Positions 38,663-55,473 of a DNA stretch of 64,000 nucleotides are shown in pieces. The stretch is taken from NCBI GenBank assembly GCA_007449985.2, contig VIIQ02000589.1, forward strand, positions 310,001 through 374,000, read 5' to 3'. The notes beneath the pieces were generated by a model. The model made no database searches and had not been told where the DNA came from. It worked only from the letters and a program-made list of their open reading frames with translations. This DNA comes from Desmodesmus armatus (lineage: Eukaryota; Chlorophyta; Chlorophyceae; Sphaeropleales; Scenedesmaceae). The position numbers were made by a program, and so were the translations under genes. Numbering within the stretch: the stretch's first letter is position 1; each line of letters begins with the position of its first letter.

Positions 38663-38736
<74 letters not shown>
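38663..38736. repeat. (AT)37 dinucleotide microsatellite
   Basis: Uninterrupted AT repeat of 74 bp, 13 bp downstream of the conserved GCCAGCCTGGC element of copy 1. In the other copies the same interval carries a TTTGAAT-like sequence instead. Confidence 0.95.
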
Positions 38737-38738
<2 letters not shown>

Positions 38739-39070
38739 TTGATGCCGTCAGCCGTCTACGCGTGATAGCCGTCGAACGTTTGAACCTTCCCACGCCCCAA
38801 AAGCCAACAGCACCACCCTCCCAGCAATTGACTACAGCCATGAATGGTCAACATAGAGACTCCACTCATGAAGGTCAAAGCACAAGGCCAACTATACCCA
38901 TAAAAGGCTGCGCAACACCTATTCAAGACTCAACCGGTCCAGGACGTGTGTAGTCGACAAAAGAAGTCGAGTCAGCTGCTGAGTCGCGTCAGACTGCAGG
39001 AAGTGTTTCCGGAGAGGGTATCAAAAGTCATCCTGCACCAAAAACGCTTGTCCTCGGCATCCTGCACACA

Positions 39071-40341
39071 ATGCTGCAGAAGACACAGGCAGTGCGTGTC
39101 CTGCAGGAGGGGTGCACCAGGCTAGGTCTGCCCAACAGCACAGCAGCAGCACTGCTGCAGTTCCTGTCTGTCAAGAGGATCCACGACCAGTTCGTGCCTG
39201 AGACGGACCGTCAACTGCGCATGTTGCCTGGAGCGGCCCTGGACAAGCTGTGGCACTACATGCTGCTCAACACTGCAGGTGTGTAAGGGCTGCTGCTCAA
39301 GATTAGAAGCAGCATGGCATCATGCCATCACGGTGATGGAGTGCGGTACAGGGCTGATGGATGAACAGAGCTGATGGATGAAATCAGAGCAGCATGGCTT
39401 GTATTGCTGTGCAGCGCCTCTCATAGCTGCGGCTGCAAGCTATGCGTGAGTCACCCACAAGCCTTGTTGCAAAGTTCCAGGCAGTCTGACTTGGGGTTTG
39501 CCCCCCCCCCCCCTCTTCAACGCCTGCAGTGTCCACTGGAGCTGGCAGCTCTCATCACGGCTGCATTGTCTTTTCCCTGACGCAAACTTGCTGTCCCCTT
39601 ATGCAACCTTACAGCTTCGACGGGCACTACCCTGTCTAGTGCATTGACTAACAGTCAACCCCGGCCGCAACCTCCCCCTCTCCTGCTACCCTTTCTCCTG
39701 CTGCAGTGTCTGCCTGTGTGCATGATTTGCTGGGTGGTGTTGTTGAGCACCGTGGCACTGACGCCTGGGACCTGGCTGATGACACCAAGCTGCTGCAGCG
39801 CCTGTACGCCCTCAACATAATGAGGCTGGAGGGACACGAGCCAGATGTAGGACTGTGGACGGTGAGAGGATGAATGGCACACAGCCAGCTGCACGGCAAC
39901 CATTAGCACAATGCTGCTGCAGCCGGTCAAGCCTTTGAATGTGCTTGTTACACCCTGGCATGCAGTTCTTGTCATTGCTGTTACTTTGTGACGTTAAATT
40001 ATCATCACTGCAGGCAAATTGAAGCAACCATGCATGTACATGCTATGCCCACTCAATTCGTGTGACGACACACACACCTGACAGCTTGCTGACACCAGTC
40101 GCACAAATTTGATGCATATCTTGCGCCATGTGCAGGAGCCCGGCACTGCGCTGCACACGCTGCGCCTGTCTACCTACCCAATTCCTGCCCTGCCGGTCCC
40201 TGCCTGGTGGTGGCAGGCTGTACATCACACCCAACCTCAAACAGCAGCTGGAGGGCCCGCTGGTGCACGCACTGCAGGTGCTGTATGCACAGGACACACA
40301 GCAGCCCGGCCCACCCGCTGTACTGTCAGGAACAGCAGCCT

Positions 40342-40378
<37 letters not shown>

Positions 40379-40694
40379 CGGCTTCGGCACGCAGCCAGCA
40401 GCAAAGCGGCAAAGGGTTGAGCAGCAGCAGCAGCAGCAGCAGCTTGGCAGTGATGCAGACAAGCTCACCCTCGTAATGAAAAATCTGATGGGCATTGAGT
40501 TGATCTTCAAAATCAAGGCCCATGTTCAGCTGGCCAAGCTTTTTGAAGCGTATGCAGACTATTACTCGATTGACGTCAAGTGCTGCAGATTCCTGTATGA
40601 CGGGGAGCGCCTGAGCAGTGAATCCACTCCACAAGATTTGGGGATGGTGGATAATGATGTGATATTCTGCATCGTACAGCAATGCGGCTGTTGA
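39071..40694 (+). pseudogene. Array copy 1: WH-motif / SUMO-like gene with frameshift in exon 3
   Basis: Exons 39071-39278 (208 nt), 39707-39861 (155 nt) and 40136-40694. Exon 1 encodes the N-terminal domain (QEGCTRLGLPNSTAAALLQF, KRIHDQFVPETDRQLRMLPG, LDKLWHYMLLNT). Exon 2 encodes CVHDLLGGVVEHRGTDAWDL and LLQRLYALNIMRLEGHEPDV. Exon 3 starts EPGTALHTLRL, but relative to all five paralogues it has one extra C at about 40193 (CCCTGCCGGTCCCTG against CCCTGCGGTCCCTG in copy 4). Translation then leaves the ancestral frame and stops at 40418-40420. In the other frame the linker, the basic AAKRQRVEQ motif and the SUMO-like domain (CCRFLYDGERLSSESTPQDL, ending QQCGC, TGA 40692-40694) remain open, so the loss is recent or an assembly error. 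Called a pseudogene on that basis only. Confidence 0.6.
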
Positions 40695-41530
40695 TGCTGC
40701 TGTGGGATTGTCAGTGGGGGCAACTATGCTAGGGCAAGAGTGTGTCATGCGGGGATGTGTGGGGCTGCAGGTGCTGTCGAGGATTGGCCATGGTCTGTGT
40801 GATGGCGGCCATGCTTGGCGCGTTTGCTTCGCCTAAGCATTGGCCACAGTCTGTGCTTCCACGGGACCAATTGTATGGTGTTTAAAGCATTTGGTCAATT
40901 GGGCATGTTAGGCATACGTATACGCCTTTTTGGGGAATTTCAGTTAGTGGCTTGCTTGATGCTGCTGCTAGGGTGCACATCTTGGTGGCTGTGTGAGAAG
41001 AGATGGTTTTGCCTCTGTTTCTGGTCTGGCTGTTGTTGTTTCTGGGTCTGGTTATTATTTATGTCTGCTTTCGTAAGTCTGCTGTTCAACAATGTTTGCA
41101 GATAACCCAGGCATCAGTATGCAGGGCACAAGAAGGTTCCGGGCACGGGAAGCAGGGCATGTTCGCTGGGCACAGCTTGATTTTGTGGGGAGCAAGTGTT
41201 ACTGTTACTGTTGCATGGTTCAGGCTGACCCTGAACAACAATTGAGGAGCCAACTAGGCTCATGGGGCAGTTAGACATGGATGTATATGTATGGAGTTGT
41301 GAAAGGGCCGCTGTCATGTCATGGCATACTGGACGTGCAGACTCATCCTGGCCTCTGCTGCAGCATGTTTTGGGTGCATGGTCCTTGCTTGTACAATATG
41401 GCGCTATGTTGGCTTGGCGCTTCATTGGCCAATGTACCGTGGTGGATGGTGTGCTGTTGGGTGAATTATTGTGGCTCCAAAATAGGCCTGTTGGTGCCAG
41501 CCTGGCACAGATCTGCATCTGCATCTGCAT

Positions 41531-41542
41531 GGTCACGTGACC
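41531..41542. promoter_or_regulatory. Perfect 12-bp palindrome GGTCACGTGACC (G-box core)
   Basis: Contains CACGTG, the core bound by bHLH/bZIP factors in plants. Located about 530 bp before copy 2. Function inferred. Confidence 0.4.
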
Positions 41543-41610
41543 AGGTCAGACGGGGCGCCACTCTGACAGGTAGATCTCATGGCAGCAACACATAGGTACA
41601 TGGGCATGTA

Positions 41611-41727
41611 TGGTGGTGCCAGCCTGTACGTCACACACACAGCTTTACAACACACAGCAGCAGCAGGGGCAGCGGCTGCCAGCCTGCCCACCAGTGGTGC
41701 AGGCACTACACAGTGTACACACAGCAG
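41611..41727 (+). pseudogene. Decayed fragment of array exon 3
   Basis: The stretch starting TGGTGGTGCCAGCCTGTACG and running through CACACAGCAGCAGCAGGGGC, GGTGCAGGCACTACACAGTG and TACACACAG follows the order of exon 3 in the intact copies (TGGTGGTGGCAGGCTGTACG, CACACAGCAGCAGCA, CTGGTGCAGGCA, CTGTATGCACAG) with substitutions and indels and no open frame. Probably a relic of an additional array member. Confidence 0.55.
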
Positions 41728-41809
41728 ATGCTGCACGACATGCAGGGGATACGCGCCGGTAGGTGCTGCAGCACTGGCAATCGTTCGATGATTGAGCCTG
41801 GGTGCTGTT

Positions 41810-41820
41810 GCCAGCCTGGC
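41810..41820. promoter_or_regulatory. Conserved palindromic element GCCAGCCTGGC, copy 2
   Basis: 252 bp before the ATG at 42072 and followed within 20 bp by TTTGAATTCAATTC, the same order as in copies 3-6. Confidence 0.5.
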
Positions 41821-42071
41821 GCAGGTCGGTTTGAATTCAATTCAATTCAAAAGCGAGGCTGCTGTGACAGCTTCAAGCTCAATGAGGCAGAGGCAGAGCA
41901 TCGGGGCAAAAGCACCAGCAACAACTTTAGGCAAAACATCAACGCCACAGCGACCGCTGGCAGTGATATCAACGAGAGCACGTCTGTTCTAGTTGGTTGT
42001 TGGTTCGGACAAATCGACCTTCCAGCTCTAAATCCTCATCAACTCCACAACAGTACACCAAAAAAGTTGGA

Positions 42072-43319
42072 ATGCTGCACAAGACGCAGGCTGTTCGCGC
42101 CCTGCAGGAGGGATGCAGCAGGCTGGGTCTGCCCCACAGCACAGCAGCAGCACTGCTGCAGTTCCTGTCTGTCAAGCGCACCCACGATCAGTTCGTGCCC
42201 GAGAAGGATCGCCAGCTGCGTATGTCGCCTGGATCCACCCTGGACAAGCTGTGGCACTACATGCTGCTCAACACATCAGGTGTGATACCTATCAGGCTGT
42301 GCTAGTGAGCTGGTGGCCTGTTAGCCAATTTCAGATCAGCTTTTGTGAGGGTTCGTCTCTCAGGAGGCTGTATGAGGGCCGCATACCTCCTGCCAGCAAA
42401 AACCAGTTACGGCTGTGCTTGACAGCAGTTGTGAGCATTGTGCCTACACAGGCAGCATGATGCTGCCTGTCATTCAATGAACATGACACTATGTTACCAT
42501 TAACTGGCTGCCATAACTTGGTCTGGGCTTTATTGCACGGTACTGTATTGTGCGGTACCTTTTGCTGCACTGCAGCCCCCACCCTCTTCTTTCATTTCAT
42601 ATTCCGCTGCAGTGTCCGCCTGTGTTTATGCTCTGCTGGGCGGTGTTGTTGAGCACCGTGGCACTGACGCCTGGGACCTGGCTGATGACACCAAGCTGCT
42701 GCAGCGCCTGTACGCCCTCAACATAATGAGGCTGGAGGGACACGAGCCAGACCTGGAACTGTGGACGGTGAGAGATAATTGGCAGCACAGCCACACGGCA
42801 GCAGCCACACTGGTTTTGTTGACTGGCCTTGGGTGTGCGTGGGCTCTCTGCAGTTTGCCGCAACAAAGGTGGCTTGTTCTATTGGCACCTGCACTGATGC
42901 CGTGTTGTTGCTGAGCCAGTACAAATCAGGCCACAGCACATGCTTGCATCTTTCTTGCCAAGACAACCAGGGTGTTTCACAAAGATGTCAGTCAGCCTTC
43001 TGACCCCATAGGCCGCCACATGTTTGCTTGCTGGGTGTCCCTTGTGCAGGAGCCCGGCACTGCCATGTACACGTTGCGCCTGACCGCCTTACAAGTGCCT
43101 GCCCTGCGGTCGCTGCCTGGTGGTGGCAAGCTGTACGTCACACCCAGCATCACCCAGCAGCAGCAAGGCCAGCTGGTGCGTGCACTGCAGGTGCTGTACA
43201 CACAGGACATGCAGTCACAGCTGCAGCCCAGCATGCCCGCTGCACTGCCCGGGCCAGCAGTATCACCAACAATGGCAGCAGGCGGCTGCGGCATGGAGCC
43301 AGCAGCAAAACGGCAACGG

Positions 43320-43362
<43 letters not shown>

Positions 43363-43616
43363 GGCTCAGCAGTGATGCAAACAAGCTCATTCTCATACTG
43401 AAAGATCAGCTTGGCGGCGAAGTTCACTTGTCAGTCAAGCCCACTGTTGAGTTGCGCAAGGTCTTTGAAGCTTATGCAGAGATCAAGCTGGTTCCAGCTG
43501 AGGTGCTCAGGTTTATTTGCAAAGGTGTGCGCCTGATGGATTATGCCACTCCACAGGAGTTGGGGATGGTGAGTGGTGATGTGGTTGACTGTATTATGCA
43601 GCAAGCAGGCTGCTGA
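42072..43616 (+). CDS. Array copy 2: WH-motif domain + Gln-rich linker + SUMO-like domain (309 residues)
   Basis: Exons 42072-42279, 42613-42767 and 43050-43616, in phase throughout. Residues 1-70 hold the N-terminal domain with KLWHYMLLNTSG; residues 70-121 hold the exon-2 segment ending GHEPDLELWT. Exon 3 gives EPGTAMYTLRLTALQVPALR, SLPGGGKLYVTPSITQQQQG, LVRALQVLYTQDMQ, then a low-complexity linker with the basic motif AAKRQRVEQ and a poly-Gln run. The last ~80 residues are SUMO-like: NKLILILKDQLGGEVHLSVK, TVELRKVFEAYAEIKLVPAE, VLRFICKGVRLMDYATPQEL, GMVSGDVVDCIMQQAGC. Layout and spacing match SUMO/Rad60-SLD (beta1-beta2-helix-beta-'DG-R-L'-'TP-E-L-M--D-I'). The protein ends Gly-Cys, so there is no diglycine for conjugation and no tail to be cleaved. 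A nuclear location is inferred from the basic motif. The best intact representative of the family. Confidence 0.72.
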
Positions 43617-44992
43617 TGCTGCTGCTGTGGTTTCCGTCCCTAGCTGGCAGCGGCGGGCAGCTATGTTTGCCAGGGTGGTCGCAATGTGTCATGTGGGACT
43701 GCAAGTGCCAGTGTTGGCCACACTCGGTGTTTTGTGATCTGTGTGGTTGCTGCCATGTGTGGTGCGCTGGCCTGGTCATCAGTCCCCTGGCACACCTGTA
43801 TTTGTACCTGTATTTGTGTGAGTGCAAACAATTGTGTAAGCAATTGTCGACAACCGTAAGACATGCACACATCGTGCATCGTGGCACAGCTGATGCTGCT
43901 GCTGACTGCCCTGTCAGGGTGGATGTGCAGTTGCATGGTGGTAGTGTACATTGCTGTGCTTGTTGTCTGGCTGTCTGGCTGTTGTCAGGTGCTGTCAAAG
44001 GTATGCAGCCCTTGGTATGCACCAAATTTCCAAGTCGGCAAAGGAGGGTGCTGTGCATACAAGAAGCGCCACTGTTGTGAATGGATGCAATCCTGAGCTG
44101 GGCTATAGCCTCCTTATGGGTCATCAACTTTCCTCAGTCACTTGTTGTGATACTTTGAAAGGAGTTCATCACTGTGAGTTGGCAGTGCATTGCCCTTGCG
44201 TGTTCAGTGTGCCTGCATGGGGTGCGTCCTCACTGCCAAGGGGTTTGTTTCTTGGTGCAGCACCACCGTAAAGCATACTTACAGGCGGCCTTGATTGCTC
44301 AATGTGCCTCTTTTCACGTGTGGTGGCCCTGGATGCAGTTTTGAGTTGTTTTGTTTGCATTTAAAAGTGTTGTGCGGCCGCTTGTTGACTGTTCTGGACG
44401 CTTGAAAGGTTGCACGAGCAGGTCCCTGGTGGTGTGGCACACAGTGTACAAGTACATTTGTATGTACAACATGTGGAACGTGGGCTCAACGTGGTGCATT
44501 GCTGCCATTAAACAATACAAAACGACGAAGGTAATGCTATGGTCTTGAACAAATTGACAGCGCACCCTGAAGCTTGTCCTTTTCGAAGATTGAGACCTTG
44601 CAAGCAGGTGTAGGTTCACCAAGCAGGTGGTGAAGCGGCAGGAAGCATGCGGGTGCTCTGGCTTGATTATGTGCACACGATGCTGGGTTTCGTGCACCAT
44701 GCTGCCCTGAAACGAGTGCTGGAGTACTGCAGCAGTGCGGCTGGGACCATGGGTGCCAGCCTGGCATCCGTTTGAATGTCGACAGGTCAACAGCAGGCCC
44801 CTCTGGCAAACCGAGAAGCACAGCATCGGGACAACATGGGCACATATTACGCAGGAAGAAAGCAATCATACCGTGACGTGCTGCAACGACATACAGGAGA
44901 ACGTCCGCTCTGGTTTAACAACGTTGTTGATTCGGCAAATCGACTCGAGCTGCAGATCCTGCTCGGCTCCTCAAAAGCACACCACATTCACC
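43617..44992. other. Intergenic between array copies 2 and 3
   Basis: Starts with a 3' flank shared with copies 1 and 5 (GTGTCATGTGGGA-type sequence). Holds the palindromic element at 44755-44765. Open frames here lack domain or splice support. Confidence 0.45.
44755..44765. promoter_or_regulatory. Conserved palindromic element GCCAGCCTGGC, copy 3
   Basis: 228 bp before the ATG at 44993; followed by CCGTTTGAATG. Confidence 0.5.
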
Positions 44993-46360
44993 ATGTTGCA
45001 AAATACGCAGGCTGTACGCTACCTGCAGGAGGGATGCAGGAGGCTAGGTCTGCCCAACAGCACAGCAACTGCTCTGCTGCAGTACCTGTCTGTCAAGCGG
45101 ACCCACGACCAGTTCGTGCCAGAGGAGGATCGCCAGCTGCGCATGTCGCCTGGAGCTACTTTGGACAAGCTATGGCACTACATGCTGCTCAACACATCAG
45201 GTACAGTACGGCCGTATTTTGTACCTAGGGCAGGTGGTTTGTGTGTATGTGTACTGCATGACAGGGGTTGGCACCTCCCAAAGGCTGCATACTAGTGTCA
45301 TTGGTGTCAGACTGCTTTTTGTGCTTGACACTTGTGCCTCCAAGCCTTTGGCCTCCACTGCCATGCCTACCACCAATTCTCCTGCTTCCCCCTGTTCTGC
45401 TGCTGCAGTGTCTGCCTGTGTGCATGCTCTGCTGGGTGGTGTTGTTGAGCACCGTGGCACTGACGCCTGGGACCTGGCTGATGACACCAAGCTGCTGCAG
45501 CGCCTGTACGCCCTCAACATAATGAGGCTGGAGGGACACGAGCCAGACCTGGAACTGTGGACGGTGAGGGGATAGAAGGCAGCACAGCCACCTGCCAGCC
45601 CAGCAGTGACTTCATTGACTATGCGTTGTTTGTGAATAACCTCTGCAGTCCGCCCCATCAAAGGTGACACATTCATACTGGCACTTGCACCAATGCAGTT
45701 GTTTGCTGCAGAAGTAACACACGAGACCACAACATGCGCACGTGTCTTTCCACGCTAGGATATGTCTGCCAGTCCGCTGACACCAGAGGCTGCATTTGCT
45801 TGCTGCCTTGCTGCCTTGCTTGCTTGGTAACCCCTCTGCAGGAGCCCGGCACTGCGCTGCACACGCTGCACCTGACCACCTCGCCAGTGCCTGGCCTGCA
45901 GTCCCTGCCTGGTGGTGGCAGGCTGTACATCACACCCAGCCTCACACAGCAGCTGCTCGTCCAGCTGGTGCGGGCACTGCAGGCACTGTATGCACAGGAC
46001 ACGCAGCAGCCCAACATGCCGGAGCCAGCAGCAGCTGCAGCAGCAGCGAAGCGTCGGCGTACTGACGAGCAGCAGCAGCAGTCGCAGTCGCAGCAGCAGC
46101 AGCACAGCCTAAGTAGCGCTGCGCCAAAGATCACACTCTTTATCAAGGACCAAATGGGCCACGATGTACGATTCAGCGTAACACGCGATACCAAGCTGCA
46201 CAAGATTTTCACAGCTTACCTGGAGCAGGTGTCATATGAGCCGACCGAAGTGAGGTTTACCTTTGATGGGAACAGAATTCAGGCCCATTACACCCCAGAA
46301 GATTATGGAATGGAGGATGGCGAGACAATTGACAGCTGGGTAAGCCAACCAGGCTGTTGA
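44993..46360 (+). CDS. Array copy 3: WH-motif domain + linker + SUMO-like domain (293 residues)
   Basis: Exons 44993-45200, 45409-45563 and 45842-46360, in phase. Exon 1 differs slightly (QNTQAVRYLQEGCRRLGLPN, VPEEDRQLRMSPGATLDKLW) and exon 2 is of the GHEPDLELW type. Exon 3: EPGTALHTLHLTTSPVPGLQ, SLPGGGRLYITPSLTQQLLV, LVRALQALYAQDTQQ, a shorter Ala run, the basic AAKRRRTDEQ motif and a Gln/Ser linker. The SUMO-like domain is the cleanest of the set: KITLFIKDQMGHDVRFSVTR, TKLHKIFTAYLEQVSYEPTE, VRFTFDGNRIQAHYTPEDYG, MEDGETIDSWVSQPGC. The positions of F-x-F-D-G-x-R-I and the E-D-G-E/D acidic turn before the final strand are those of SUMO. It ends Gly-Cys. Confidence 0.75.
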
Positions 46361-47371
46361 TGCTGCAGTGGCTCTTCTGAATGCTATCTTCCTCTGCCAG
46401 GGTGGCGGTGCAGCTGAGCTGGGGTGGGAGCAGTCCACTGGCGGCTAGTGCTGCCCTGCAATGCGCACGGAGCTGTGTGTTATCAATTTGTCACAAATGG
46501 ACAGTGTGCGGCCGTGGATTACGGTTCCTTCTTTGTGGGGTGTCACTGGATGACGGGCATGTGACTGATTTTTCTCAGCTACAAATATTGTGTGCAAAGC
46601 TTCTGTGTATACCAAGTGCTAGGTCTGGTTGTTGTATTTGGCTTTGTGCACAGCCAGTGAGCTGCTGCTCACGTGCCTCCCTGGCTGACTCAGGGGCGTG
46701 TGAGGTGTCCGTACTCACCCTGAGGTTTCTTCCAGGACAGTTGCGCTGCTTCAGTGTACCACAGGGGCAGGAGGTGTGCCGCTTTGGTCCCTGTAATGCA
46801 GCCCTAGGGCTGGCATGCCACAGCCATGCTGCTGGTATTGTTGGAGCATCACCAGATGGCCCAGCCGTTGAGTTATGTTGTGTTCCTTGCTGACATCTGG
46901 CTACAGGAGTGTGGACGTGACTGGTCCGTTTAATTGGACACATTTTTTGACTACCCTGCCAAGGTCACCGTGCAGTTGTTTCGGGAGTGCTCTGCTGATT
47001 GGCGCTGGTTGGTTGCTGTGTGTCTGTCTCTAGGTGTGTACCTTCAAGGGAAATACTAGCCACACTCCAGCACTCCGAGTGCTTGCTGCACCCACTGCCT
47101 CAGAACCTTACGCAGCAGACGGGTACTGGGGAGGTAACCTTTGGTGCCTGGCCCAGGTTTGAATGAACTTGAATCGGGTGAAACAGGAAACCGCCTGAAC
47201 AAGCTGCAGCACAAAGTGAAATTATGCATCATCGCAGCGAAGGCTTCCGTCGCAACACAAGCCAAGATCAAGCCTACCTGAGCTCAGTGTTCAGATTGTC
47301 GAAACAGCAGTAGCGCCAAGCCAAGCCACTTCACTTCAACAGCGCTCGCAAGCATTTTTGAAGCGTACAGT
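46361..47371. other. Intergenic between array copies 3 and 4
   Basis: The 3' flank (46440-46800) is homologous to the flank after copy 4 (49130-49460): both carry CTGCCCTGCA, GCATGTGACT, TTTCTCAGCT, CAGCCAGT and CTACCACAGGGG-like blocks in the same order. A 170-codon open frame at 46381-46893 overlaps this non-coding homology and was rejected. The 5' element of copy 4 is at 47141-47155. Confidence 0.5.
47141..47155. promoter_or_regulatory. Degenerate upstream element of copy 4 (TTGGTGCCTGGCCCA)
   Basis: Aligns with TTGGTGCCAGCCTGGCCCA of copy 5 after a four-base loss; 217 bp before the ATG at 47372 and followed by GGTTTGAATGAA. The preceding GGTAACC is also shared in near-identical form with copy 5. 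Confidence 0.4.
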
Positions 47372-48668
47372 ATGTTGCAGAAGACGCAGGCTATGCGCGT
47401 TCTGCAAGAGGGGTGCAACAGGCTAGGTCTGCCCAACAGCACAGCAGCAGCACTGCTGCAGTTCCTGTCTGTCAAGAGGGTCCACGACCAGTTCGTGCCT
47501 GAGAAGGATCGTCAGCTGCGTATGTCGCCTGGATCCAAACTGGATAAGCTGTGGCACTACATGCTGCTCAACACATCAGGTGTGTACACAACTGCAGACC
47601 GGCTGGCCAGCCACCATAGTCAGCAGTGCCCAGATACTTATGTTGGGCATTCGGCCATCAACAGCTAACAGTCTTTGATAGGGCCCTATTGAAAGCTTGA
47701 ACTCAGTACCTGTCACCAGTCTTCCAGTCTTACCTCTGCCCTAGTATTTGGGGTGCCTCTCCACCCCCCCCCTTTCTCCTGCTGCCCTTTCTCTTGCCGC
47801 AGTGTCTGCCTGTGTGCATGCTCTGCTGGGTGGTGTTGTTGAGCACCGTGGCACTGACGCCTGGGACCTGGCTGATGACACCAAGCTGCTGCAGCGCCTG
47901 TACGCCCTCAACATAATGAGGCTGGAGGGACACGAGCCAGATGTAGGACTGTGGACGGTGAGACATAAAGGCAGCACAGCAACACGGCAGCAGCAACAGT
48001 GGCTTGGTTGGCTGGCCTTTGTGTGGCCCTTCGCAGCCGGCCGCACCAATGGCGACATAACCTACTGGCACCTGCACTGATGCAGTGTTAAATTAAATTA
48101 AATCTACCTACACACCCCCTTGGTGTAGTTGCACTATAAAATTTCCTTCCATTAGCCTCGCGTCCTGTGAGGACGGATGCATGCATGCATGGGGGTCTAG
48201 TGGCACTCGCACCCCACCTCACTCCCCTCATATGCCCAAGGACATACTTGGGGGCCTGTAAACCCACCGAAATTCTGGCTGGAGGTTGGTGTTCGACACA
48301 GTAGCTTGGTTGGTGTAAGGTATCACCCAGTGTTAACCTGCACCGCATCGCAAAAGCACTTGTTGGTGTCATTTCAACAGGACCACCCGTTGTTTTTACC
48401 GACATGCCTGTCAGTGCATTGGCGAGGGAGGCTGTGACCTGCTTCCTTCCTTGCTGTGTGTGCCCTGTGCAGGAGCCCGGCACAGCCCTGCACACGTTGC
48501 ACCTGACCACCTCTCCAGTGCCAGCCCTGCGGTCCCTGCCTGGTGGTGGCAGGCTGTACGTCACACCCAGCCTCACACAGCAGCAGCAAGACCAGCTGGT
48601 GCAGGCATTGGAGGTGCTGTATGCACAGGGAGCACAGCAGCCGCAGCAGCTCGACATGCTGGAGCCAG

Positions 48669-48703
<35 letters not shown>

Positions 48704-48735
48704 ACAAAGCGTCGGCGCACTGACCAGCTACATCC

Positions 48736-48772
<37 letters not shown>

Positions 48773-49120
48773 GAGGAACTTAACAGTAATGCATACACAA
48801 TCAATCTCATTGTCAAGGACCAGATGGGCCGGGAGGTGCACTTCAAAGTGAGCCCCCACACCAAAATTGAGAAGGTCATCAAAGCCTACGCCGAAAAAAT
48901 GTCAGTTGACTTCTACGCTGTGAATTTTCTTTGGGATGGGGATAGGATCCTGGGCCACTGCACCGCAGAGGATTACGGGATAGAAGATGGGGAAACAATG
49001 ACTGCATCATGTCACATGCGGGCTGCTGATGCTGTGGTGTTGTCGATGCCTCCTTCCGCTGCCAGGGTGGTCCTGCAGGTTGGGTGGTGTCGGCGGCGGG
49101 GGGGGGGGGGGGGGGGGTGA
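47372..49120 (+). CDS. Array copy 4: SUMO-like gene with frameshifted C-terminal tail (336 residues as read)
   Basis: Exons 47372-47579, 47803-47957 and 48473-49120. Exons 1-2 are standard (KLDKLWHYMLLNTSG; GHEPDVGLWT). Exon 3 reads EPGTALHTLHLTTSPVPALR, SLPGGGRLYVTPSLTQQQQD, LVQALEVLYAQGAQQ, a long poly-Ala, TKRRRTDQL, poly-Gln, then a strong SUMO-like domain: TINLIVKDQMGREVHFKVSP, TKIEKVIKAYAEKMSVDFYA, VNFLWDGDRILGHCTAEDYG, IEDGET. At about 48998, GAAACAATGAC aligns to GAGACAATTGAC of copy 3 with one base missing. The ancestral frame would have run nine more codons to a ...HAGC end and TGA at 49027-49029. As read, the protein gains about 40 residues ending in an Arg- and Gly-rich tail through a long G run. 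Either a recent mutation or a one-base sequence error. Confidence 0.68.
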
Positions 49121-49565
49121 TGTGGGGCTGCTAGTGCTGCCCTGCACTGCGCATTTAGCTGTGTTTTCTCTGTTTGTGCGAACGTCGTTGGTGTATGTCA
49201 ATCACCATCTATCAGTGGACGACTGGCATGTGACTCAACTTTCTCAGCTCAACTTGTTTGATGTTTGATCTTACATGTATGACAAGTGCTTGTTTGTGGT
49301 GGTCACAGCCAGTAAGCTGCCCCTCACATCATGTGATACCTGTTTTGCCCACTCAAATTGTGTTGGGCATCCGTACCCATCCCGAGTTCTTTTCAGGGCA
49401 GTTGTGTTGCTGCATTCTACCACAGGGGGCGGGAAGCTTGGGTCCCTGTAACCCATCCCTTTGTTCCGCAGCCGCTGACTGGTATCCTGGGGCATCACCA
49501 TATGGCCTGGTCATTGGCTCTTGTTACGGATCCCAGTAAAAGGTCATCAGACAGAATCTGGCCAA

Positions 49566-49676
49566 AACTTTGACAGCACATAGCTCTGCGGCCCTGCAGC
49601 CCGGGCCGCTGCAAATCCGCATGCGTGCTTAATATGTAAAAAAAGAAGGTACATTTTCGTGTTATCTCGATCCGTG
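49566..49676 (+). repeat. Direct repeat, unit 1 (about 111 bp)
   Basis: Begins AACTTTGACAGCACATAGCT and ends GTTATCTCGATCCGTG. Matches the unit at 49826-49936 over its whole length with scattered differences. Confidence 0.9.
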
Positions 49677-49825
49677 TCTGCACCAGGAAATCCAAAATCT
49701 AGTAGCACTCATGCTGGCGATATTACACGCTTGAAAGATGCATATGTTTGCCAATAACAACTGGCGACCGCGCTAGCGGTGCACATATCAGTACAGTACT
49801 GTCAGCAGGCAGGTCATCCAGCAGT

Positions 49826-49936
49826 AACTTTGACAGCACATAGCTCTGCGGACCTCCAGCCCGGGCCTCTGCAAATCCGCATGCGTGCTTTATAGTTCAA
49901 AATGAAAGGTACGTTTTCGCGTTATCTCATTCCGTG
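49826..49936 (+). repeat. Direct repeat, unit 2 (about 111 bp)
   Basis: Second copy, starting 260 bp downstream of the start of unit 1; shares CTGCAAATCCGCATGCGTGC and the TTTTCG-GTTATCTC block. No open frame; could be remnants of a mobile element end or a local duplication. Confidence 0.9.
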
Positions 49937-50744
49937 AATGCCATGGGCGCACAGGGAAATACAGGGTAAGAAGACCTCACCTGCCTCTGATCGTCCGGAC
50001 AACAAAACATTATTCAGTGGTACAGTGTACATCATCCAAACGAGCGTCAGCAACAGCCCCTTGGGGGCCCGGGCCCAGGCAGGGTGCAGCAGCAGCAGCA
50101 GGCTGGCAGCCCAATGCCAACACCAATGACTACGCAATCACAATTCAAAGTCATGTGCTTTAATTTCAAGCAGGAATCCATTTTGTATGATTATATATCA
50201 GCAAGCTGCCGACAGGACTATCACAGGGAGGGTTTCAGTATGGGTCGGGGCAGCACTGAACACACTAGGGCAAACGCCAAGTAGTCTGCAGCCAAGAACA
50301 CAGGACAGCAGCAGGGCCAGGCATAAGGCTGCACGGAAGCAGCACCACACACACAACTGGGGCTCAAGCAAGGAAAACACCCAAAATTAAAAAATAACTG
50401 ATGGGGATCACTGGGATCCGTCGCCGTCCCTGGTTGCTTTCCCCTTACTGACATCTACAGAGGTGTGGATATGAAGCCACGCTGCATGGTAACTCCTTGT
50501 GACTATACTGCCAAGATGGGCATGCACTTCTGTTTGGGAGTGCTCCCGCTGGATGGTGCTTGTTGCTGTCTGTCTCCAGGTGCATGATGCAGTGGGTGAC
50601 TAAGGCACCATATGCATCTGCACTAGCATGGGTCCTTGAAATGAAACGAAGTGCTGGCTATCCTTGGACACTCAGTGTATATGTGATGGGCATCCATTGC
50701 CTCCGAACGCGTAACAGATGGGTACTGCCGACGTAACCTTTGGT

Positions 50745-50755
50745 GCCAGCCTGGC
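50745..50755. promoter_or_regulatory. Conserved palindromic element GCCAGCCTGGC, copy 5
   Basis: 209 bp before the ATG at 50964; followed by CCAGTAAATTTGAATGAAG. Confidence 0.5.
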
Positions 50756-50963
50756 CCAGTAAATTTGAATGAAGTCAAACCAGGTTCAACCGAACACCAT
50801 CTGAACACGCAGCAGCACGAAGCGATTGATATATTGTCGCAACGAGGGGTTTGGTGGCAAAAACAGGCAGAGATCCCCACTTCAGTGCTTCCGGTTGTCG
50901 AAACAGCAGCTGGGCAAGCCACCTCATATAACAGCGCTGTCAAGCATTCGCACGGCATACAGT

Positions 50964-52674
50964 ATGTTGCAGAAGACGCAGGCTATGCGCGAACTGCAGG
51001 AGGGATGCAACAGGCTAGGTCTGCCCAACAGCACAGCAGCAGCACTGCTGCAGTTCCTGTCTGTCAAGAGGATCCACGACCAGTTCGTGCCTGAGAAGGA
51101 CCGTCAGCTGCGTATGTCACCTGGCGCCAAATTGGATAGGCTGTGGCACTACATGCTGCTCAACACAACAGGTGCGTGGTCTACTGCTGCATGCTGGTCA
51201 GCCGTGCTGCTGGTAACTTCTTTGGACGTGTGTTGGTTGTTTGGTCATCAACAGCTGAAGCTGCATGCCCCTTGCAATACTATCGTGAAGCTTGAATTGA
51301 AGCCTGTCACCAGTCTTTCAGTTTCGGATGCCCCTGTGCAGGGCCATGCCTAGCAGGTGTGTCTGTCCCTATCCCACCCACCCCCTTCTGCTACCCTTTC
51401 TCCTGCTGCAGTGTCTGCCTGTGTGCATGCTCTGCTGGGTGGTGTTGTTGAGCACCGTGGCACTGACGCCTGGGACCTGGCTGATGACACCAAGCTGCTG
51501 CAGCGCCTGTACGCCCTCAACATAATGAGGCTGGAGGGACACGAGCCAGACCTGGAACTGTGGACGGTGAGAGACACATACCGCACAGCTGGCACAGCTG
51601 GTATGAATTGTGTGTGTGCTTGCTTAGGCATGCGTGTGCCTATCACATAGCTGTGTCTAGAACCACATAAAGTCCACAGCCGTCACAGCTGCAGTGCTGT
51701 CACTGCCCTATAAAGCTAGCTGACTGGCTTGTTGCGAGATCCTATCCACATAAGGGAGCATTGTGGCTGGCGGCAGCCATGCACTCTATTGCCCAGACAA
51801 CCCCCCTAGTTTGCTACAACTTGTTTGTTAGCCATTGTCAGGCGTGCACAGGCCTTGAATTGTACAGTTGCATCCGTTTGCGGAGGCCTAGACGACAGCC
51901 GCTGACCAACCCCAAATTTAACTGCATGTGCATGCTTCCTGTTCCAATATGCAGGAGCCTGGCACTGCCCTGGCCATGCACACGTTGCACATGACCTCTC
52001 CAGTTGCGGGCCTGCAGTCCCTGCCTGGTGGTGGCAGGCTGTACGTCACACCCAGCCTCACACAGCAGCAGCAGGACCAGCTGGTGCACGCACTGCAGGT
52101 GCTGTATGCACAGGACACACAGCAGCCCAGCATGCCAGGGCCGACAGCAGCTGCAGCAGCAGCAGCAGCAGCACCATCACCAGCCGCACCACCAGCAGCA
52201 GCACCAGCACTACGAGAAGGCTGCGACACTGAGCCAACAGCAAAGCGGCCACGGGTAGAGCAGGAGCGGCAGGAAGAGCAGCAGCAGCAGCAGCAGCAGC
52301 ACCGGGGTTGGCAGTGGTTGGCCCTGCAGCAGCTGCAGCAGCAGGGAAAGCAGCAACAGCAGCAGCAGCAGCCGCAGCAGCAGCCGCAGCGAAGCGCTGC
52401 CTCATCCCTCAAGATCATCATCAGGGACTACATACCACATCTTCCCACGATGGAGGTCGTGTGTTTTGAGACACACCTCAAGGTGAAGCGTGACGCCCGC
52501 TTGGTCACAGTGTTTGAGGCCTACCGCAGGGCAAAGGGTCACTGGCCTTGGCACCTTCACTTAGACTCATTCAGTTTCGTTTTCCGTGGGCAGCGTATCT
52601 GGGATCTTGATGTCACTGTTCAGGACTTGCAAATGAGGAGTGGCGATGTCATCAAATGCTACAAGTTGTTGTAG
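50964..52674 (+). CDS. Array copy 5: divergent SUMO-like member with extended linker (360 residues)
   Basis: Exons 50964-51171, 51412-51566 and 51955-52674, in phase. Exons 1-2 standard (KLDRLWHYMLLNTTG; GHEPDLELWT). Exon 3 has EPGTALAMHTLHMTSPVAGL (a two-residue insertion compared with other copies), SLPGGGRLYVTPSLTQQQQD and LVHALQVLYAQDTQQ. An Ala/Pro-rich stretch, the basic TAKRPRVEQERQEEQ motif and two Gln-rich blocks follow. The C-terminal domain still has the SUMO outline (SSLKIIIRDYIP, CFETHLKVKRDARLVTVFEA, HLDSFSFVFRGQRIWDLDVT, VQDLQMRSGDVIKCYKLL). It carries insertions between strands 1 and 2 and after the helix, replaces the D-G turn with R-G, and ends Leu-Leu instead of Gly-Cys. 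Likely functionally distinct. Three back-to-back TGTAA motifs follow the stop. Confidence 0.7.
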
Positions 52675-52702
52675 TTAGGTGGAATGTTGATGCTGCCGTT
52701 GA

Positions 52703-52735
52703 TGTAACTTACTTACATCTTGTAATGTAATGTAA
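52703..52735 (+). terminator. Clustered TGTAA polyadenylation motifs after copy 5
   Basis: TGTAA at 52703, 52721, 52726 and 52731, the last three in direct tandem, 29-57 bp after the stop codon. TGTAA is the usual polyadenylation signal in chlorophycean algae. Confidence 0.6.
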
Positions 52736-53952
52736 GCTGTGTCAGGCCTTGCCATGTTGTGCAACAGTGGAGCAGGGTTGTGTCATGTGGGAATCCACAT
52801 GCCATCACAGGCCGTCACGAAATTACAGTAGGCTGCCCCTGGGTCACCCACTTTGTACAGCTGGACTGACTGCCATGCTCCTAATGCTACTGTATGAAGC
52901 AGCCATTGGCTCCTTGTGGCGGTCTGAGTATTGATTTGAGATGAATGAGGAAGTAGGGGGTGTGGAGAGGTGGGTGTGCTCAGGGGGGGTGCTCCTGAGT
53001 GCTCGAGCAAGGGGCTGTGCATTGTATCGTTGGTCGTTGTGCCAGGTGCGGAAATTGTGCTGATGTTCATGGCTGTGTTGTTCTACTGTGATCAAGTTGG
53101 AATGGGGTTTTGTTCTGGAGAGTGTGAGAGTGTTCATGTACATGGTCAAAATGGCAGATTGGGTTGTGCAGTTGTCTGATAAGTGCAGGATGGGTCTGTG
53201 TTGATGTAGCTGTTCATGTCAACACTTCATGAATTACTTTGCCTATGTGCCTGAGTAAGCAAAAGTATGGTGGCATACTGGCATACTGCTCGGTATACGT
53301 ATGCCTTTCTGTACAGGCCAATGCCTTTCAGAGCTCTCGCAGATTGTGCAGCCCAAATTGCAGGGCCTCATTTACTCCAATGCATGCCATATGCGGCCAC
53401 GCGGCCATGGTTTGACTGTACATGTGCATAGTGGTTTATGGGCACATGGGGTTCTGCCGCTTGTGGTGAGTTATGTCGGGTATTTTTTGTACAGTGTGAC
53501 TGCATCTGGCAAGGAGCTGCACGAGTCCTTGCTGTTTGCACGGGATGCATGCTCCCAGGCTGACTTTGCTTTGCAACTTACATGCCTGATGGTGGGTTGC
53601 AGCTGAACTCAATGCAGATGCCAGACTCACATATAGCAGTGAACGAAACTCATTTGTGAAATCATTGCAACCCAGTGAGTGCGAATGAGCTTTTTGTGGG
53701 TGACTCAAAGTGCCAGCCTGGCAAATATTCGAATTGATATGAATGAATGACTAAGTGCAACAGCAGGCCGTTTGTGTTGAACAGCAGCGCGAACACAAAG
53801 GACCAATCACTTAAGACTCGTGTGGGGTGAATTGGCAGAGAAAACAGAAGTCCAGTTTGATCACTGAATCAGTTACTGAGTCAGCTTCTGCATTCGTTTG
53901 CCTGCGCGCCAATCCCAGAAGCACCTGCTGAGCTGTGAACAAACGGGTTGAA
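52736..53952. other. Intergenic between array copies 5 and 6
   Basis: No exon supported. Contains the element at 53712-53722. TGTGTCATGTGGGA near 52778 is the 3'-flank block shared with copies 1 and 2. Confidence 0.45.
53712..53722. promoter_or_regulatory. Conserved palindromic element GCCAGCCTGGC, copy 6
   Basis: 241 bp before the ATG at 53953; followed by AAATATTCGAATTGATATGAA. Confidence 0.5.
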
Positions 53953-55473
53953 ATGCTGCAGAAGACTCAGGCTGCCCGCGCCCTGCAGGAGGGATGCAGC
54001 AGGCTAGGTCTGCCCCACAGCACAGCAGCAGCACTACTGCAGTTCCTGTCTGTCAAAAGGATCCACGACCAGTTCGTGCCTGAGAAGGACCGTCAGCTGC
54101 GTATGTCGCCTGGAGCCAAACTGGATAAGCTGTGGCACTACATGCTGCTCAACACAACAGGTACGGAACATGGCAAGCTGCATACCATGCACATGGCTGG
54201 TGGTAGGTGTCAGCACCACGTGCGTCTGAGGCAGCATGCTCCAGTCCTGAATGAAGATCGCCCAAACGAAGGCCTGCCACCATTACGCCAACCACTTTTC
54301 TGAGTGGGGTATCTTACCTCCCCACCCCATCCGCACGCACCCCCTTTCTTCTGCTGCAGTGTCTGGCTGTGTTCATGCTCTGCTGGGTGGTGTTGTTGAG
54401 CACCGTGGCACTGACGCCTGGGACCTGGCTGATGACACCAAGCTGCTGCAGCGCCTGTACGCCCTCAACATAATGAGGCTGGAGGGACACGAGCCAGATG
54501 TAGGACCGTGGACGGTGAGAGACATACCGTACAGCCAGCACAGCTGGCAGAGCTGGCAGCAGAAATGAATGCGTATGCTTGGTTGGGCATGCATAGTGCA
54601 GCCTATCGCAAAGCTGTGAAAAGATCCACGTAAATTGCACAGCCGCCACTGCTGCAGTGCTGTCACTGCCCTGCAACATTTAGGTGGGTGGCGAGTTGTC
54701 CTGTCCATACAACAGAGCATTGTGGCTGACGGCAGCCATGCACTATCTGGCCCAGACGGGCCCTTTGATTTTCTGCAACTTGTTTGTCAGCCCTTGTCAG
54801 GCGTGCACAATTTGTACAATGCAGCTGCCTTTGAAGGCCCAGCCCAACCACAAAACATAAGTGTGTGTGTGTGCACGCCTGTTCCAAATTGCAGGAGCCC
54901 GGCACTGCGCTGCACACGCTGCACCTGACCACCTCCCCAGTTGCGGGCCTGCAGTCCCTGCCTGGTGGTGGCAGGCTGTACGTCACACCCAGCCTCACAC
55001 AGCAGCAGCAGGAACAGCTGGTGCGCGCACTGCAAGTGCTGTATGCACACGACAGACAGCAGCCCAGCATGCCAGGGCCGACAGTAGCTGCAGCAGCAGC
55101 ACCAGCAGCAGCAGCAGCAACACCAGCACCAGCAGCAGTACCAGCAGCAGCACCAACTGCAGCAGCGCCAGCGCCAGCAGCACCAGCAGCAGTACCAGCA
55201 CCAGCAGCAGTGCCAGCAGCAGCAGGAGCCGCAGCACCAGCACCAACACCAACAGCAACACCAGCACCAGCACCAGCACCAGCAGCGGGCTGTAGGACTG
55301 AGCCACCAGCGAAGCGAACACGGGTAGAACAGCAGCAACAGCAGCAGCAGCAGAAGCTGCATGTTGGTGAGAACCGCTGCGTGACTACAAGAATGGCAGT
55401 CACTTCGGCAGCTGCGGTTCGAGGGGTCCGGCAAGGTAAGCATGCTCCACAACAGCAGCAGGCAAGCTGCTAG
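53953..55473 (+). CDS. Array copy 6: member without the SUMO-like domain (313 residues as read)
   Basis: Exons 53953-54160, 54360-54514 and 54895-55473. Exons 1-2 standard (KLDKLWHYMLLNTTG; GHEPDVGPWT, a Leu-to-Pro change). Exon 3 begins EPGTALHTLHLTTSPVAGLQ, SLPGGGRLYVTPSLTQQQQE, LVRALQVLYAHDRQQ, then a roughly 75-residue Ala/Pro/Thr low-complexity stretch, the basic PAKRTRVEQ motif and poly-Gln. Where the others start the SUMO-like domain, this copy has KLHVGENRCVTTRMAVTSAA and ends QQQQASC. No beta-grasp sequence is found in any frame after it. A good donor (GGCAAG|GTAAGC) at 55436 means the real transcript may splice to a downstream exon instead, giving a different C-terminus. Confidence 0.62.

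Follow-up and report, generated by a model that had tools for sequence, protein, structure and literature searches.

A tandem gene family of the green alga Desmodesmus armatus that joins an N-terminal module to SUMO-like cassettes with an altered Gly-Cys tail

The di-glycine end of SUMO is the point of both its maturation and its attachment, which raises the question of what a SUMO-like domain might do once that end has been altered. The question is posed by a locus of the green alga Desmodesmus armatus that we analyzed in a window of 64,000 nucleotides (positions 310001-374000 of contig VIIQ02000589.1, here C560, in a genome of 115.8 Mb and 831 contigs). Six consecutive genes of a three-exon build (copies c1 to c6) occupy positions 39071-55473 of this window on the plus strand. 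They form an array of a green-algal SUMO-fusion family, in which a conserved N-module, made up of exons 1 and 2 and the first ∼50 codons of exon 3, is joined through a low-complexity linker to a SUMO-like cassette; exon 3 runs from a conserved stretch (EPGTALHTLHL...LPGGGRLYVTPSLTQQ...) into an Ala/Gln-rich linker and, in five of the six copies, on into such a cassette. An earlier note on this DNA overlooked the change from the canonical GGC tail to Gly-Cys, which is the most interesting feature of these genes and suggests, from sequence, permanent SUMO mimics in place of ordinary protein tags.

The same note had placed a SUMO/Rad60-SLD-like domain in five of the six genes, and profile searches agree with it. 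In a Pfam scan, Rad60-SLD (PF11976) was matched in c3 (E 2e-18) and c2 (E 3.7e-9), and no SUMO-like cassette was found in c6; in the genome search c1-c4 scored above the cut-off, which c5 clears only with its in-frame neighbors added (21.8 bits alone, against 23.8). The c3 cassette aligns to SUMO chains in the PDB without a gap over 75-78 residues, ending one residue before the last Gly; one of these is a single-SUMO chain (E 1.7e-13). There is thus a strong case, on sequence grounds, that the cassettes are homologous to SUMO and of the SUMO-type β-grasp class. The genome also holds two canonical SUMO genes, SUMO_A and SUMO_B, on contig C59 (loci L067 and L068), at ∼18.7 kb on the minus strand (precursor ending GGCCC*) and ∼100.5 kb on the plus strand (precursor ending GGC*); SUMO_A is the gene with the GGC* end and SUMO_B that with GGCCC*. 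Both were first seen through one exon apiece, as weak matches of a plant-type SUMO (E 0.6 and 0.9), and four exons were then assigned to each by eye. The c4 cassette has 62% identity with SUMO_A and 65% with SUMO_B. Whereas the canonical genes are split by introns and have no N-domain, each cassette lies within a single exon and is fused to the N-domain, which fits an origin from a captured, processed copy of SUMO. The tree resolves neither descent from SUMO_A as against SUMO_B nor a single cassette clade apart from other SUMO.

The cassettes are SUMO-like by sequence, but they are one Gly short of canonical SUMO. The canonical tails read QQVGGC* in one C59 gene and EQVGGCCC* in the other, and the c2 cassette ends QQAGC*. 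At the DNA level the end of c2 is one Gly codon shorter than that of SUMO_A, and the sequences on either side of this codon match, through the stop codon and three bases further downstream. The Cys of the cassettes thus occupies the position of the last Gly of mature SUMO, and the tail has the mature length. We counted 25 cassettes, seven from this genome and 18 from homology searches (copy 6 and P0093 hold none), and 21 of them end in Gly-Cys; for the 23 SUMO-type cassettes, which exclude the ubiquitin-like P0091 and P0092, the figure is 20. P0091 and P0092 are third exons of the family carrying a ubiquitin-like cassette, the former ending in Gly-Cys and the latter in Gly-Phe. None of c4, c5, and P0090 ends in a SUMO-type Gly-Gly tail, and among the 23 SUMO-type cassettes we found no Gly-Gly end that a SUMO protease could expose. 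Conservation was scored on 20 cassettes (c4, c5, P0090, P0091, and P0092 left out), where the mean top-residue frequency is 0.55 and the only invariant columns are one Ala, the final Gly, and the final Cys; as a crude figure, the chance that three random invariant columns of 77 would include both last ones is ∼0.001. Because c5 and P0090 were removed for their differing tails, 20 of 23 is the fair count. The cassettes in this genome share just 22-49% amino acid identity, although their tails are mostly kept.

A terminal Cys held at this position could have a chemistry of its own. The Cys of such a pre-matured SUMO might be linked reversibly, through a disulfide, to the catalytic Cys of the SUMO conjugating enzyme (E2), the activating enzyme (E1), or an Ulp protease, so that the SUMO cascade would be inhibited or sensed under oxidative conditions. 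The cassette has the length of mature SUMO with Cys as its last residue, the Gly-Cys end recurs in the ubiquitin-like P0091 besides 20 of the 23 SUMO-type cassettes, and the genome contains matches to Peptidase_C48. The closest likeness is engineered ubiquitin G76C, in which Cys replaces the terminal Gly at mature length and which, in the available portions of two reports, forms disulfides with E2s, HECT ligases (E3s), and the CE-clan protease SdeA (PMC10619426, PMC4734694); that protein is man-made, whereas the algal SUMO-type end is natural and present in most copies. However, the reactivity of ubiquitin G76C is uneven over a panel of deubiquitinases, and a second crystal structure described in the same partial text lacks a disulfide to the catalytic Cys (PMC10619426). 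The Cys could also have been inherited from the canonical GGC tail with no new role needed, and we consider the disulfide trap unlikely. Quite improbable is its extension, in which a natural equivalent of ubiquitin G76C would have diversified into a gene family: a nuclear SUMO with Cys as its final residue, fused to an adaptor and acting as a redox-gated brake on SUMO signaling, with cassettes tuned to different enzymes and an N-module kept uniform by exon-limited concerted evolution.

The invariant Gly admits another interpretation. UFM1 is matured to a single Gly, and a protease might likewise trim the Cys here to expose a Gly as in UFM1 or ATG12, upon which the whole N-domain-SUMO protein would be conjugated. 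Gly precedes Cys in all 20 aligned SUMO-type cassettes. Against such a modifier, which also seems unlikely, bulkier replacements of Gly75 in ubiquitin reduce or break the transfer from E1 to E2, with Ser tolerated in the ubiquitin system, as far as the accessible text of that study goes (PMC3731359).

Gene structure and integrity bear on whether these copies function at all. As the earlier note had stated, exon 1 measures 208 nt and exon 2 155 nt in all six copies, and the intron phases are shared. These are phase 1 for intron 1 and phase 0 for intron 2, and all 12 introns have a GT donor and an AG acceptor. The exons, in window coordinates, are as follows.

39071..39278, plus strand, copy 1 exon 1 (208 nt)
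39707..39861, plus strand, copy 1 exon 2 (155 nt)
40136..40694, plus strand, copy 1 exon 3; early frame shift; PF11976 at 40467-40664; the cassette's own frame ends QQCGC*
42072..42279, plus strand, copy 2 exon 1
42613..42767, plus strand, copy 2 exon 2
43050..43616, plus strand, copy 2 exon 3; fully open; PF11976 at 43392-43592; ends QQAGC*
44993..45200, plus strand, copy 3 exon 1
45409..45563, plus strand, copy 3 exon 2; shares an identity of 1.00 over 155 bases with exon 2 of copy 5
45842..46360, plus strand, copy 3 exon 3; fully open; PF11976 at 46130-46333; ends SQPGC*
47372..47579, plus strand, copy 4 exon 1
47803..47957, plus strand, copy 4 exon 2
48473..49120, plus strand, copy 4 exon 3; PF11976 at 48800-48997; a late frame shift alters the C terminus
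50964..51171, plus strand, copy 5 exon 1
51412..51566, plus strand, copy 5 exon 2
51955..52674, plus strand, copy 5 exon 3; diverged cassette; weak PF11976 at 52471-52653; ends KLL*
53953..54160, plus strand, copy 6 exon 1
54360..54514, plus strand, copy 6 exon 2
54895..55473, plus strand, copy 6 exon 3; Ala/Pro-rich linker with a motif resembling a nuclear localization signal; no SUMO cassette found

A long (TA)n run lies immediately 5' of the array, at ∼38670-38760, and a 116-nt direct repeat (86%) lies between copies 4 and 5, at 49566-49681 and 49826-49941.

The cassette of c1 is out of frame with exons 1 and 2 owing to an early frame shift in exon 3, and in c4 a frame shift swaps the last residues, the shifted frame entering a Gly-rich stretch. 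Together with the diverged end of c5 and the missing cassette of c6, these could be taken to mean that the array consists of decaying, partly broken duplicates that are functionless apart from the N-domain. However, both frame shifts are single-base length differences and may be assembly errors; the ratio of nonsynonymous to synonymous divergence (dN/dS) in exons 1 and 2 is 0.20-0.34 in all 28 pairs of eight copies, which points to purifying selection; and subtypes of Gly-Cys cassettes recur in metagenome sequences, with the tail conserved. We consider decay unlikely.

The eight copies include two from elsewhere in the genome, where four relatives were found in all. Those on C637 and C208 have the three-exon build with exons of 208 and 155 nt as in the array; those on C783 (46% identity over exon 1) and C71 (34%, E 5.7e-4) are distant. 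The N-domain paralogue on C783 (L054, 6955-7278) has a ubiquitin-like last exon (PF00240, E 1.6e-12) that ends PPRSH*, and inspection by eye places its intron 1 in phase 0 and an extra intron within its exon 3. Three protein searches, the third of which scored the best 8000 candidates, gave 5, 78, and 19 overlapping matches, nearly all of them exon pieces of metagenome origin. These metagenome proteins are nameless, and some may come from different strains of a single species, perhaps one close to the source alga. P0006 is a 260-residue gene model whose two exon joins are identical to those of the array and so back them; its source, to judge from the portal name, is probably Botryococcus braunii. 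No relatives turned up when prokaryote genomes and viral contigs were scanned with a single pattern each. The automatic Joint Genome Institute name of the exon-3-bearing P0005 and P0074 is 'small ubiquitin-related modifier', so annotation had already recognized the cassette, though apparently not the fusion build.

The N-domain spans ∼125 residues and is predicted to be helical, and the corresponding part of P0006 gives a confident helical model. It matched no Pfam model above the cut-off and had no clear PDB match. The 'WH motif' named in the earlier note holds in its first letter, since the Trp is invariant across an eight-row alignment (A2); among more distant members the His is replaced by Gln or Thr in some, and P0008 lacks the Trp. 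A similar W-H motif after Leu-Asp is presumably carried by GRDP-like proteins (PF07173) and is visible in one GRDP-like exon on contig C536. Yet PF07173 matched neither c2 nor c3 (hmmscan, E ≤ 10), nor P0006, P0007, P0056, and the N-domains of C783 and C71 in a search whose filters drop most matches above E 0.1. In the genome search (E ≤ 1) C536 was the sole match, with none at the loci of the N-domain family, and hhalign of the family against a single GRDP exon returned a probability of 0.2 and an E value of 0.37. At C536 two of the GRDP-like PF07173 exons (467.7-469.3 kb; L057 and L058) share a stretch of 1.6 kb, in which pieces of intron are repeated.

Between N-module and cassette, the linker carries a KRxR motif in 19 of the 26 third exons examined, often within EPAAKRxRVEQ. 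Given its resemblance to the nuclear localization signal of c-Myc, we infer that KRxR may serve as such a signal and direct nuclear import. This bears on a further explanation of the tail, in which the C-terminal Cys would be a lipid or other thiol anchor and the SUMO domain passive. Some ubiquitin-like proteins are prenylated near the C terminus, and the terminal Cys is retained in 21 of 25 cassettes. However, the Gly-Cys ends show none of the known prenylation signals (CaaX, CC, and CxC), apart from the CGC of c1, which is CxC by letter, and KRxR points to the nucleus; we regard an anchor as very unlikely.

The reading that we tentatively prefer, and that we would place a little short of an even chance, is that the family supplies nuclear SUMO mimics which the canonical protease would not mature and which would act as adaptors or decoys. 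Loss of one Gly codon (QQVGGC* to Qx-GC*) would remove the Gly-Gly site for maturation and conjugation, and the protein would then, we propose, be made as a permanent, non-maturable SUMO. The N-domain would bind a single shared nuclear partner, and the diverged cassettes would offer differing SUMO-like surfaces, serving either as adaptors or as decoys that occupy SUMO enzymes. Retention of the Gly-Cys end would reflect a continued fit into the tail-binding groove of some SUMO enzyme. Enzymes for such a mimic to engage are plausible here, given 17 exon-sized matches in the genome (best E 2.8e-7; two with internal stops) to the Ulp-type Peptidase_C48 (PF02902), the one protease family covered by the search. 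That tail changes can block transfer along the cascade is known from ubiquitin: Gly75 to Ser is activated by the E1 of NEDD8 and not handed to its E2, and bulkier residues at Gly75 hamper the ubiquitin E1-E2 step, data that in the portion of the study available bear on Gly75 and preceding residues and not on the last Gly (PMC3731359).

Several observations weigh against this interpretation. Ser at Gly75 is tolerated in the ubiquitin E1-E2 step in that same partial text (PMC3731359), and transfer is thus not blocked by every change of the tail. Four cassettes do not end in Gly-Cys, namely c4 (frame shift), c5 (KLL), P0090 (diverged tail), and the ubiquitin-like P0092 (GF), and in the wider family the tail is variable, P0006 ending in MPC, C783 in RSH, and C71 in LYR. 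A dead tail would moreover be expected to drift; that this one is invariant hints at a positive role, which 'non-conjugatable' leaves unexplained. The groove positions known from human SUMO2 show no greater variability than the remaining ones (mean entropy 1.87 versus 1.78), leaving a diversified specificity for SUMO-interacting motifs unsupported. Finally, c6 retains the N-module without a cassette, and KRxR is absent from 7 of the 26 third exons (C637, P0075, P0083, P0088, and P0090-P0092).

The two halves of these genes differ in their apparent age. In exons 1 and 2, synonymous divergence (dS) among the eight copies is 0.10-0.51; over the initial 50 codons of exon 3, compared in seven copies without c1, it is 0.13-0.45, with dN/dS of 0.19-0.89. 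For the cassettes (seven copies, 21 pairs) dS is 0.64-2.85, with four pairs not computable, which is near synonymous saturation. Codon bias was ruled out as the cause of this contrast, and a general constraint on silent sites was rejected, as distant paralogues show expected codon identity only. The earlier note's 'young' array therefore survives only for the N-module (exons 1 and 2 and the start of exon 3), where it is best read as concerted evolution, and fails for the cassettes, several of which also pair with metagenome subtypes: c2 with P0075 (99/92), c5 with P0080 (95/80) and P0084, and C208 with P0086 (97/97). The tree behind these pairs has 29 rows, with P0090 left out, and its bootstrap is not fully settled. 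Array copies share 94-100% identity in exon 2, and c3 and c5 are the same over its whole length. Its flanks, compared without gaps, fall to 0.47-0.80 over 40 bases upstream, 0.35-0.70 over the first 20 downstream, and 0.10-0.42 from 20 to 60 bases beyond the donor. Such identity of c3 and c5 beside flanks at chance level makes an exon-limited or complementary DNA-templated conversion possible. Gapped alignment of the introns is patchy, with no or short matches for most pairs, and the longest are in intron 2 of c5 and c6 (278 nt, 77%) and of c2 and c4 (139 nt, 78%). Exon 2 of P0005, P0052, and P0064, which from their equal listed size probably lie on one 62,606-nt contig, has shared residues of its own, with a mutual identity of 0.89-0.91 and 0.77-0.83 to the window copies. 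Since a direct test for conflict between N-module and cassette trees was not significant, we draw on the contrast in dS, the fall in identity at the edges of the exons, and the pairing of subtypes for what is best read, from the sequences, as concerted evolution confined to the N-module exons alongside older, retained cassette subtypes.

The GSUL2/DSUL locus of grasses resembles the array in its tandem, lineage-specific SUMO-like genes, some without di-glycine and called conjugation-deficient; it differs in that its products are single SUMO-like domains or head-to-tail repeats, with neither an unrelated N-domain nor a Gly-Cys end mentioned in the accessible part of that paper (PMC6680281). The algal array is not of this type, having an unrelated N-domain in all six copies. 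Rad60-Esc2-NIP45 proteins are likewise larger proteins with a C-terminal SUMO-like domain, and SLD2 of Rad60 binds the SUMO E2; in the available text this SLD2 is tailless (PMC2946365), whereas the algal cassettes keep a tail ending in Gly-Cys. The best Pfam match of the cassettes carries the Rad60 name, and c2, c3, and c5, the copies scanned, each hold a single PF11976 stretch rather than the C-terminal tandem pair of the Rad60 type. Apart from the array, a SUMO-like-domain exon on C248 (27889-28107; L026) looks to be of the NIP45/Rad60 type, a naming that is tentative. In 12 of 31 places of a review of the plant SUMO system no comparable fusion appears (PMC11371177), and open-licence papers yielded no description of an N-domain-SUMO fusion family, which is not proof of absence. 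The earlier note's view of a tandem family in which an apparently undescribed N-domain is joined to a SUMO/Rad60-SLD-like domain is supported to this extent.

The family thus offers a natural experiment, in which a SUMO tail was altered in one way and then kept amid the divergence of the domain that bears it, on roles that the tail may have beyond conjugation. It adds an N-terminal domain absent from the libraries searched, and it provides a case of seemingly homogenized exons beside mostly non-homogenized introns and a neighboring domain.

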